Source of the DNA: Treponema socranskii subsp. buccale
GTDB taxonomy: Bacteria; Spirochaetota; Spirochaetia; Treponematales; Treponemataceae
NCBI RefSeq assembly: GCF_024181585.1
Contig: NZ_CP054258.1
Coordinates: 930,001-994,000, forward strand
Reading direction: 5' to 3'
Length of the DNA stretch: 64,000 bases
The stretch's first letter is position 1. Every line of letters begins with the position of its first letter. Positions 3,991 through 30,995 of this stretch are shown piece after piece. The notes beneath the pieces are model-generated. The model saw nothing but the letters and a program-made list of their open reading frames with translations. It searched no databases and was not told where the DNA came from. Position numbers and translations under genes: made by a program.

Positions 3991-4356
3991 TAGGAGACGC
4001 GAAAAAATCCTGCGCGGGGAACTTCGCACTTCGTGCTCGTTGCAAGTTGCGCGGGGAACTTCACGCTGACGCGCTTGTCGCAAGTCGCGCGGGGAACTTC
4101 GCACTTCGTGCTCGTTGCAAGTTGCGCGGGGAACTTCGCGCTAACACGCTCGCGATTTCTCCGCACTGCTCGAAATTATTTTTTAAAGTCTGGAGTTGAA
4201 AAACGGCCGAGCCGTTTTTCTTTTATAGGAGACGCGAAAAAATCCTGCGCGGGGAACTTCGCGCTAACGCGCTCGTTGCAAGTCGCGCACTGCTCGGATT
4301 TGGTTGATGAAGTCGAGAGTTGAAAAACGCTTGGCGCGTTTTTCTTTTATTAACAC
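3991..4356. repeat. Composite repeat region A: 37/38-bp tandem units and terminator hairpins
   Basis: The block starts at ATAGGAGACGCG then AAAAAATCC. Units begin GCGCGGGGAACTTC and end GCAAGT(T/C). Complete units lie at 4012-4048 (37 bp), 4049-4086 (38 bp) and 4087-4123 (37 bp), with a partial fourth at 4124-4146 that runs into a CTCGCGATTTC arm and the loop motif CCGCACTGCTC (4161-4171). A second block at 4227-4297 holds one 38-bp unit (4247-4284). Perfect GC hairpins with T runs follow at 4198-4220 and 4322-4344. No credible gene lies in 3832-4470. The family recurs at 17747-18175 and 30775-30964. Confidence 0.85.
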
Positions 4357-4392
4357 GCTCGCGATTTCTCCGCACTGCTCGAAATCGCGAGC
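4357..4392. repeat. Constant-loop hairpin upstream of tyrS
   Basis: A perfect 12-bp inverted repeat, GCTCGCGATTTC (4357-4368) and its complement (4381-4392), encloses the 12-nt loop TCCGCACTGCTC. The loop matches those at 18152-18163 and 30941-30952, while the stem sequence is different. The right arm is followed by TC and the -35 box of the tyrS promoter. Confidence 0.85.
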
Positions 4393-4394
4393 TC

Positions 4395-4423
4395 TTGTCT
4401 TAATTCTCTCAATCATATAAAAT
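4395..4423 (+). promoter_or_regulatory. tyrS promoter abutting the hairpin
   Basis: TTGTCT (4395-4400) and TAAAAT (4418-4423) are separated by 17 bp. The -35 box starts 2 nt after the hairpin arm. Transcription should begin near 4430, leaving a leader of about 40 nt that carries an AAGGATG ribosome binding site. Confidence 0.55.
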
Positions 4424-17746: not shown

Positions 17747-18139
17747 GAAAAACGGCCAAGCCGTTTTTCTCTCATAGGAGACGCGAAAAAATCCTGCGCG
17801 GGGAACTTCGCGCTCCGCGCTCGTTGCAAGTTGCGCGGGGAACTTCGCGCTCCGCGCTCGTTGCAAGTTGCGCGGGGAACTTCGCGCTTCGCGCTCGTTG
17901 CAAGTGGCGCACTGCTCGGAATTTATTTTTGAAGTCTGGAGTGGAAAAACGGCCAAGCCGTTTTTCTCTCATAGGAGACGCGAAAAAATCCTGCGCGGGG
18001 AACTTCGCGCTTCGCGCTCGTTGCAAGTTGCGCGGGGAACTTCGCGCTCCGCGCTCGTTGCAAGTCGCGCACTGCTCGGAATTTATTTTTGAAGTCTGGA
18101 GTGGAAAAACGGCCAAGCCGTTTTTCTCTCATAGGAGAC
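17747..18139. repeat. Composite repeat region B: 37-bp tandem units and terminator hairpins
   Basis: Three exact 37-bp units (17796-17832, 17833-17869, 17870-17906) and two more (17993-18029, 18030-18066) start GCGCGGGGAACTTCGCGC and end TCGTTGCAAGT(T/G/C). Each array is preceded by GCGAAAAAATCC-T and followed by GCGCACTGCTCGG. Perfect terminator hairpins GAAAAACGGC-CAA-GCCGTTTTTC lie at 17747-17769, 17944-17966 and 18104-18126. The arms GCGAAAAAATCC recur at 17783, 17980 and 18140. Those distances (197 and 160 bp) differ by exactly one 37-bp unit. The rest of 17594-18215 holds no gene. Confidence 0.9.
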
Positions 18140-18175
18140 GCGAAAAAATCCTGCGCACTGCTCGGATTTTTTCGC
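18140..18175. repeat. Constant-loop hairpin upstream of alr
   Basis: A perfect 12-bp inverted repeat, GCGAAAAAATCC (18140-18151) and its complement (18164-18175), around the 12-nt loop TGCGCACTGCTC. The same left arm precedes the 37-bp arrays at 17783 and 17980, so the arrays look like insertions into the loop of this element. TC and the alr -35 box follow. Confidence 0.9.
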
Positions 18176-18177
18176 TC

Positions 18178-18206
18178 TTGCCCAAAAGGCGCTGTCTATC
18201 TAAAAT
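18178..18206 (+). promoter_or_regulatory. alr promoter abutting the hairpin, leaderless type
   Basis: TTGCCC (18178-18183) and TAAAAT (18201-18206) are 17 bp apart. The alr ATG follows the -10 box by 9 nt, so the transcript would begin within a few bases of the start codon; there is no ribosome binding site. Confidence 0.55.
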
Positions 18207-18215
18207 AGGCGTACT

Positions 18216-19358
18216 ATGAGAAGTACGCGGGCGGTCGTTTATAAAAACAATTTGATACACAATCTTTCCGTCGTTAAATCTTTTCTTAAAAACGATGTGA
18301 AAATCTGCGCTGCGGTAAAAGCGAACGGCTACGGTTCGGGTGCGGTTTTTGCCGCAAAGACGGCGCTCGCTTGCGGTGCATCCTTTTGTGCGGTCGCGAC
18401 CGTAGACGAAGGGATCGAACTCCGCGAAAGCGGCATCGCCTCTCCGATTTTACTTTTAAGTCTGTGTACGCCGGATGAAATGAAAGACGCCGTTTTGTAT
18501 AAGCTTACCCCTCTCGTGTGCGACGAAGCGTATGCGGAACTTTTCAATGTCGCTGCCGGAAAATACGCTTCGGGAAAATTTTCCGTGCACATTGCAGTCG
18601 ATACCGGTATGCGCCGCATCGGATGTTCCGTCGATGAAGCTTCGCGTTTTGCAAAGCGCATCGTAAACTTGCCGCACCTTACACTCGGAGGTGTGTGTAC
18701 GCATTTTTCTTCGGCGGATGAAACGGATGATGAAGCAAGGCGGTATACGGACGATCAATTTTCGCATTTTATGCGCGCCGTCAAATCGATCGAAGACGAA
18801 GGCATCGATCCGGGCATCCGGCACTGCGCGGCGTCTGCGGCGCTGCTCGATCGGCCGGAAATGCAGCTCGATATGGTGCGGCCGGGAATCGCCATGTACG
18901 GCTATTTTGACGGGAGTATCGACGGCGCTTACTGTGCCGAGCGGGGAAAGCCGTGTACGCTTGAGCCCGTGATGGCTCTTGAAAGCGAAGTCGTTGCGAT
19001 CAAATCGATAAAAAAAGGGGAGGCGGTTTCGTATAACCGCACGTGGACTGCCGAATGCGATACCGCCGTCGCAACGCTTCCGATCGGTTACGCCGACGGA
19101 TTGCCGCGGAGCTTGTCTCCCGGTTTGTGCGTTGCGATCAACGGAAAAAATTATCCCGTCGTCGGGCGCATCTGTATGGATCAATGTATGGTCGATGTCG
19201 GCTCAGGTGGAGTGCATCGCTGGGATAAAGCCGTCATATTCGGCCCTGAAAATTCCGGCGCGCTGCAAACGGCGGCGGACATCGCAAAGGCTTCCGGCAC
19301 GATTTCGTATGAGATTTTGACGGGCATCGCAAAGCGCGTGCCTCGCACGGAAGTGTAG
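18216..19358 (+). CDS. alr: Alanine racemase
   Basis: This PLP enzyme interconverts L- and D-alanine for peptidoglycan. 380 residues. The PLP lysine is Lys 35 (A-V-K-A-N-G-Y-G), the catalytic tyrosine is Tyr 273 (S-Y-N-R-T-W), and the substrate region G-R-I-C-M-D-Q-C-M-V-D-V is intact. The gene follows the hairpin-promoter element directly. Confidence 0.96.
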   Translation: MRSTRAVVYKNNLIHNLSVVKSFLKNDVKICAAVKANGYGSGAVFAAKTALACGASFCAVATVDEGIELRESGIASPILLLSLCTPDEMKDAVLYKLTPLVCDEAYAELFNVAAGKYASGKFSVHIAVDTGMRRIGCSVDEASRFAKRIVNLPHLTLGGVCTHFSSADETDDEARRYTDDQFSHFMRAVKSIEDEGIDPGIRHCAASAALLDRPEMQLDMVRPGIAMYGYFDGSIDGAYCAERGKPCTLEPVMALESEVVAIKSIKKGEAVSYNRTWTAECDTAVATLPIGYADGLPRSLSPGLCVAINGKNYPVVGRICMDQCMVDVGSGGVHRWDKAVIFGPENSGALQTAADIAKASGTISYEILTGIAKRVPRTEV

Positions 19359-30774: not shown

Positions 30775-30928
30775 CTATTGCTCGGATTTGCTCTTTTAAG
30801 TCCGGAGGCGAAAAACTCCTGCGGCGTTTTTCTTTTATCAATACGCTCGCGATTTCTCCGCACTGCTCGAAATCGCTCTGTAAGTCGAAAGGCGAAAAAC
30901 GGCCGAGCCGTTTTTCTTTTATCAACAC
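30775..30928. repeat. Composite repeat region C: constant-loop hairpin and terminators, no 37-bp units
   Basis: Begins with a half-element (ATTGCTCGGATTTGC). It contains a hairpin GAAAAACTCC-type stem at 30810-30832, a constant-loop hairpin with an 8-bp stem GCGATTTC (30849-30856, complement 30869-30876), and a perfect terminator hairpin GAAAAACGGC-CGA-GCCGTTTTTC at 30894-30916. It is the same family as 3991-4392 and 17747-18175. The intergenic 30707-31044 holds no gene. Confidence 0.8.
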
Positions 30929-30964
30929 GCGCGCAAATCCTCCGCATTGCTCGGATTTGCGCGC
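30929..30964. repeat. Constant-loop hairpin upstream of phoH
   Basis: Perfect 12-bp inverted repeat GCGCGCAAATCC (30929-30940) and its complement (30953-30964) around TCCGCATTGCTC. The stem differs from those before tyrS and alr while the loop is the same but for one base. TC and the -35 box follow. Confidence 0.9.
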
Positions 30965-30966
30965 TC

Positions 30967-30995
30967 TTGCATAAATTATCCTCTGCCTTTATAAT
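30967..30995 (+). promoter_or_regulatory. phoH promoter abutting the hairpin
   Basis: TTGCAT (30967-30972) and a perfect TATAAT (30990-30995) with a 17-bp spacer. Position relative to the hairpin is identical to the tyrS and alr promoters. Confidence 0.65.

Follow-up and report, generated by a model that had tools for sequence, protein, structure and literature searches.

The window analysed here is a stretch of 64,000 nucleotides (positions 930001–994000) of the 2.8-Mb single-contig genome of Treponema socranskii subsp. buccale; outside the window, the stretches around matches were read. The window carries the tyrS, alr and phoH genes, which were identified by family matches to TIGR00234, TIGR00492 and PF02562 (PhoH), respectively. 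The promoter of each gene is directly preceded by a DNA palindrome with a constant loop, and all features described below in window coordinates lie on the plus strand. In the alr copy (18140–18175), the left arm (GCGAAAAAATCC, 18140–18151), the constant loop (TGCGCACTGCTC, 18152–18163) and the right arm (GGATTTTTTCGC, 18164–18175) are followed by TC, TTGCCC, a 17-bp spacer and TAAAAT (18201–18206). On its 5′ side, the left arm adjoins a conserved sequence, GGAGACGC (18134–18141), which takes the form TAACACGC or CAACACGC in other units. The conserved right end of the element, GCTCTTG (18174–18180), runs into the TTG of the −35 box (18178–18180) of the alr promoter (TTGCCC-17-TAAAAT, 18178–18206), which is present in relatives without the array. 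At tyrS, the last palindrome (4357–4392, loop 4369–4380) is followed by GCTCTTG and the promoter TTGTCT-17-TAAAAT (4395–4423), with the TTG at 4395 and the −10 box at 4418–4423. At phoH, the last palindrome (30929–30964, loop 30941–30952) likewise leads through GCTCTTG into the promoter TTGCAT-17-TATAAT (30967–30995), with the TTG at 30967 and the −10 box at 30990–30995. Folded as single-strand DNA, the palindromes have z-scores of −4.2 to −5.6. The succession of stem, loop, TC, TTG, 17 bp and −10 box at tyrS, alr and phoH is exactly that claimed in an earlier note on this DNA, with coordinates and gene families confirmed. The alr −10 box ends 10 nt 5′ of the ATG (18201–18216), and the alr mRNA is therefore probably leaderless or near-leaderless.

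The earlier picture of lone hairpins requires revision. Each hairpin is the last unit of a tandem array with a unit of ~85–88 bp, and the loop may carry inserts of 36–37 bp. The alr array (17747–18180) contains three units, with terminator-like hairpins at 17747–17769, 17944–17966 and 18104–18126. The tyrS array (3993–4397) is composed of palindrome units with 36–37-bp loop inserts, and the phoH array (30798–30969) contains two units. A unit combines a terminator-like hairpin, accompanied by GGAGACGC or a variant, with a palindrome that bears the loop TSCGCAYTGCTC, in the order AAGTCnnnAG, GAAAAACGnnnnnnCGTTTTTC (the terminator-like hairpin), TTTTATA, GGAGACGC, left arm, loop TSCGCAYTGCTC and right arm. 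The terminator-like hairpin is present in every unit modelled; that of the last alr unit (GAAAAACGGCCAAGCCGTTTTTC, 18104–18126) has a z-score of −7.1 when folded as DNA and is conserved in covariance model R1. The constant-loop palindrome in the window has no T-run of its own and comes after the terminator-like hairpin. Internal units pair over the inner ~6–8 bp alone before the next AAGTC begins, and the full 12–13-bp stem is found only in the last unit, which ends with GCTCTT. This right end is constant and the left ends vary. A 7-bp repeat, TTTATTC, flanks the copy at genome position 276437, and no constant target duplication was seen at the other loci.

Some loops are enlarged by one to five tandem inserts of 36–37 bp (GCGCGGGGAACTTCGCGCTYCGCGCTCGTTGCAAGT). 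The first alr unit holds three tandem 36-bp inserts within its loop (17796–17905) and the second holds two (17993–18065). Certain arrays include additional modules that again form hairpins, in which similar loops are carried by different stems. The number of units and the inserts differ between orthologous arrays, at tyrS and at other loci, as in a modular tandem array. The 36–37-bp insert is also found free, in ~3–9 tandem copies away from constant-loop hairpins (genome 666552–666886, 1462374–1462693, 2049818–2049933 and 1182624–1182819; L090–L093), mostly in a common ATCGTTTCCT context. At L012, L013, L014, L086 and L087, a multi-hairpin module (CACGGCANGGATGCCGTG, CGCATTTTGC..GCAAAATGCG and a hairpin with the loop ACACGGATGT) lies inside the loop of some units, and its hairpins likewise each have a similar loop and differing stems.

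The exact loop pattern occurs 27 times in the genome, compared with one occurrence of the pattern read backwards. Across relatives, a count of the bare 12-mer gave mostly few matches per genome, as chance predicts, and covariance models of the terminator plus palindrome (R1) and of the hairpin only (R2) were therefore used. R1 identified 49 places in this genome at E ≤ 0.01. R2 identified 30 copies in this genome, 41–42 in T. socranskii subsp. paredis (G163), 25 in T. sp. Marseille-Q4130 (G173) and 17 in T. socranskii subsp. socranskii (G139), which amounts to 17–42 copies in each of the four genomes of the T. socranskii group. The latter three genomes are very close to that of the window (alr 93–96% identical). 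Elsewhere in the genus, R2 found 1–7 copies in 44 of 142 genomes (about a third), and it found 1–3 copies in a few genomes outside the genus. In a scan of 84,980 species with one genome each, stems of at least 8 bp accompanied 37 of 44 matches from Treponema/Spirochaetaceae, compared with 2 of 41 other matches (manual count). The family is almost confined to Treponema. The loop-plus-inner-stem pattern had no match in scans of IMG/VR, and the 471-bp alr array had none in phage and plasmid collections. No Rfam family covers the hairpin itself, and, apart from tRNA and TD-1, Rfam yielded weak, sub-threshold matches only. The earlier note knew of no described element of this kind, and literature searches on Treponema repeats and on TD-1/TD-2 yielded no description either; TD-1/TD-2 go unmentioned in the main text of the 2010 paper on structured RNAs. 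The element contributes intergenic sequence to Treponema of the mouth and gut and has apparently gone undescribed.

The relation of the element to promoters was evaluated at the 12 TTG-type loci, defined by GCTC followed by TTG and by the absence of a tRNA. The −10 box is located at exactly 17 bp in 10 of them and at 16 and 18 bp in the other two. The mean −10 score at 17 bp is 4.3 of 6, compared with about 2 at most other spacings, and in 5000 shuffles a mean of one locus fell at 17 bp and none of the shuffles reached 10, as befits a sigma-70 promoter module. The same composite of terminator, hairpin, GCTCTTG, 17 bp and −10 box is found in two distant rumen Treponema (L172 and L302). The claim that the hairpins stand against −35 boxes thus holds at these loci, but roughly two in three terminal hairpins of this genome lie away from −35 boxes; the association with promoters is genuine without being exclusive. 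Copies are flush with the stop codons of convergent genes (genome 201982, 276437 and 546744), follow the stop codon of one gene (L059, L060, L166 and L173) that is taken for yebC from its reading frame, occur at tRNA 3′ ends (1330175–1330368, 689138 and 2354080) or stand before TD-1-like leaders (about 14 copies). No unifying theme is apparent among the neighbouring genes. Because TTG and TTA (a stop codon on the other strand) both begin with TT, an element ending in GCTC followed by TT fits either; the frequent exact abutment on −35 boxes and stop codons has only a partial explanation.

Several of these placements have features of their own. In the tRNA-gene copies, the outer stem duplicates part of the 3′ end of the tRNA, for example GGGACTTGAA...TTCAAGTCCC (L018 about 2375–2650, genome 1330175–1330450; also L061 and L071), and more constant-loop hairpins with the loops CATCCNTG and CCTCCTG are located inside. 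Relatives of the TD-1 RNA (RF03155), scoring 34–52 bits, lie directly 3′ of the hairpin subfamily GGGAGACACTCGCGATTTC...GCGTTCTTATCTCGAG (L075 807–985 and 1106–1283 on the minus strand, L021, L076, L079 and L085) and are missed by the RF03155 gathering score of 64.5. In L074 (about 1538–1590), the right arm holds the likely Shine–Dalgarno sequence (ATGGAG) of an ORF beginning MAKYEFQTEVNQ, probably htpG, and the palindrome could mask this sequence in the mRNA.

The stems vary in a strongly coordinated manner. In an alignment of 53 hairpins, 92% of cells are paired, compared with 63% in shuffles. Most of these hairpins were selected for an uninterrupted run of 8 or more pairs, which inflates this percentage but leaves the pattern of pair types unaffected. 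The covariation score is 0.70, compared with 0.17 after shuffling, and drops to about 0.1 when the partner is shifted by one column. Nine columns of the loop plus closing base are invariant, and the stems share little. Genus-wide, conservation resides in the loop, and the stems differ by locus and species yet remain complementary. The earlier description of self-complementary stems that differ by locus around a near-invariant loop is upheld by the covariation score and by the 27-to-1 ratio of the loop pattern to its reverse. G-U pairs make up ~9 of 586 paired cells (about 1.5%, manual count from the pair table). RNA helices are usually several-fold richer in G-U, and the pairing therefore seems to be maintained at the DNA level.

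Ten orthologous loci, each present in at least two of the four close genomes, were compared for the course of stem change. Differences at paired positions are two-sided in 88 cases and one-sided (G-U) in 7, and 19 of 384 comparisons involve a mismatch. The loop differs by ~7% and the next ~30 nt downstream by ~4%, a value that leaves out the rows comparing the own copy at 546744 with relatives, where a one-base register shift gives 27 of 30 differences. At phoH, the left arm is GCGCGCAAATCC in the own genome, GCGAAAAAATCC in G163 and GCGCATAATTCC in G173 and G139; the right arm matches in each case, with one mismatch in G139, and TTGCATAAATTATCCTCTGCCTTTATAAT is identical in all four genomes. 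Stem change is thus wholesale replacement rather than stepwise compensation. The earlier note had read compensated stems as a sign of selection for the folded form, which does not follow: both sides change together, G-U is nearly absent and alleles are shared between loci, and whole-hairpin replacement or template switching fits these data at least as well. The low G-U content points to DNA-level correction or whole-hairpin exchange over RNA selection.

Two mechanisms fit the replacement of stems, namely conversion or transposition of whole hairpins between loci and replication template switching. The stem allele GCGAAAAAATCC is common to non-orthologous loci (own alr, G163 tyrS, G163 phoH and G173 tyrS), which favours whole-hairpin conversion or transposition. 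Other stem alleles, such as GTAAATAATTCC and CTAGCGGATTCC, occur at one locus only and leave room for template switching during replication, which has been shown to account for multi-base compensatory changes (PMC8794818).

G163 and G173 lack the alr array but have an intact promoter: ...CCCGCTTGCCCTG is followed there by TTGCCC or TTGCTC AAAAGGCGCCGTCTATCTAAAAT, with 17 bp to TAAAAT. By parsimony over four genomes only, the array was most simply gained in the window lineage, where it replaced about 27 bp and ended exactly at the TTG. Empty sites were found at four more loci, 434470 (in G173 and G139), 2289229 (G163), 276437 (G173) and 2758382 (G139), which brings the number of loci with empty sites to five. 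Promoters at the empty sites are intact without the element; the neighbour at 276437 is the stop codon of a convergent gene and not a promoter. Between the two options raised by the earlier note, a promoter switch and a mobile hairpin, presence and absence at orthologous sites favour the latter. No transposase or recombinase tied to the element was found: this genome has a single, broken Y1 match, and copy number is not correlated with Y1 genes. The broken gene is IS200-like and contains three in-frame stop codons, two TGA and one TAA (genome 1680846–1681196).

In our assessment, with a probability of about 0.6, each hairpin represents the final unit of a modular palindromic repeat that recombines and carries a putative terminator, and such repeats would form a Treponema-specific family that is mobile or spreading and resembles BOX and REP elements in behaviour. 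The data show the anatomy, the strong covariation, the stem replacement at orthologous loci, the presence or absence and the flush placement. Recombination would spread entire hairpins to other loci or convert those already there, and incoming copies may be joined through a few shared bases such as TT(G); the only joins to survive would be those that spare the −35 box or stop codon of the neighbour. Perfect stems may be kept by whole-hairpin conversion or by replication template switching. The constant loop is probably recognised by some hairpin-binding or single-strand-binding activity, given that it is conserved while the stems have largely diverged, and such recognition would keep the loop. 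The main effect on neighbours would be that the putative terminators insulate and separate transcription units, with no regulated switching of the adjoining promoter; transcript 3′ ends would then fall at GAAAAACG..CGTTTTTC of the terminator-like hairpin. The promoter composite that recurs in the distant rumen Treponema (L172 and L302) is a feature that a purely parasitic repeat need not show. A bolder version is conceivable but speculative: a dedicated Treponema enzyme acting on hairpin or single-strand DNA might read the constant loop and install or repair perfect palindromes beside promoters and gene ends, each event using one arm as the template for the other. If true, the DNA palindromes would form a system that renews itself, with the loop as its only conserved information.

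Two alternatives would assign the hairpin a role in the expression of its neighbours. A structured RNA, acting in transcripts as the 3′-end structure of a convergent or upstream gene or as a leader, would account for the strong covariation, for the several copies located immediately after stop codons and followed by a terminator-like hairpin (L060, L166 and L173), for the L074 copy that overlaps a likely Shine–Dalgarno sequence and for the TD-1-like leaders after about 14 copies. The promoter-type hairpins are, however, located upstream of the −35 box and after terminator-like hairpins, the G-U fraction is unusually low for selection at the RNA level and the hairpin itself belongs to no Rfam family, which makes this alternative unlikely. 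A protein-bound promoter switch, in which a regulator bound to the cruciform or loop just upstream of the −35 box would govern a regulon that includes tyrS, alr and phoH, is quite unlikely. It would suit the fixed place against the −35 box at 12 loci with the −10 box at 16–18 bp, the loop kept across the genus and the composite in L172 and L302, but most terminal copies lie away from promoters, close relatives carry the same promoters without the element and the adjoining genes lack a common theme. The switch is thus not supported as a general function.

The remaining alternatives concern the origin of the palindrome. Movement by a Y1 (HUH) transposase that reads the hairpin as single-stranded DNA, as for REP/RAYT elements, is suggested by the single-strand hairpin, the intergenic arrays, the bulged base at the stem foot and the GGAG that precedes the hairpin in many copies. 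The tetranucleotide is not constant, however: GGAG is replaced by TAAC or CAAC in other window units and by GATA, TTAA or GAAC in other species. Y1_Tnp (PF01797) is broken here and absent from most same-genus genomes, including hairpin-bearing ones, and in REPs the stem rather than the loop is the conserved part; a REP/RAYT-like origin is very unlikely. It is highly improbable that the structures are ordinary paired terminators with stems perfect by happenstance and loops alike through common descent without recognition. A terminator-like hairpin is present in each modelled unit, as this explanation would have it, but the constant-loop palindrome of the window follows the terminator and lacks a T-run, and a loop conserved genus-wide on largely diverged stems is not expected from common descent alone. 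Integron attC sites were also considered and rejected. They have conserved GTTRRRY/RYYYAAC at the arm ends and a variable apex; in the alignment read by eye, the arms are variable, ending in GCTCTT or GTTCTT, and the apex is conserved, the reverse of attC.

The modular palindromic repeat favoured here illustrates that stem covariation is distinct from selection for the fold, two things that are often confused, and repeats of this kind could be misread as functional RNAs in RNA searches based on covariation. The repeat adjoins essential promoters. With two-arm changes at most of the ten orthologous loci and few G-U intermediates, it provides a natural test bed for whole-hairpin conversion and template switching in bacteria.

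Among known systems, the element is filed as a kind of bacterial interspersed palindromic repeat. Some rolling-circle origins have a conserved nick site in a loop on a variable stem, and the constant loop on a variable palindromic stem is alike by analogy, but the Treponema repeat has no replicon context. REP, BIME and REPIN sequences are short intergenic palindromes that form arrays near gene ends, with conserved stems and a tie to RAYT Y1 transposases. The Treponema repeat is alike in size and place, but its loop is the conserved part and this genome has no intact Y1 gene. The TD-1 RNA differs in extent. Its matches, up to 52.0 bits and below the gathering score, are directly 3′ of one hairpin subfamily, its Rfam model starts after the hairpin, which is not part of TD-1, and RF03155 has no match in the window. 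Correia elements of Neisseria are a small promoter-linked repeat in which 26-bp inverted repeats bound a longer interior (PMC3049150). The promoter link is similar, but inverted repeats of the Correia type around a longer interior were not seen here. BOX elements of Streptococcus pneumoniae are modular intergenic repeats with variable tandem internal units and strong hairpins, which cluster with other repeats and affect downstream expression (PMC3049150). BOX and the Treponema repeat are both modular, tandem and intergenic. The BOX modules (boxA, boxB and boxC) are described as fixed sequence families, whereas the Treponema repeat is set apart by its free stem, its fixed loop and an end flush with a −35 box or stop codon.
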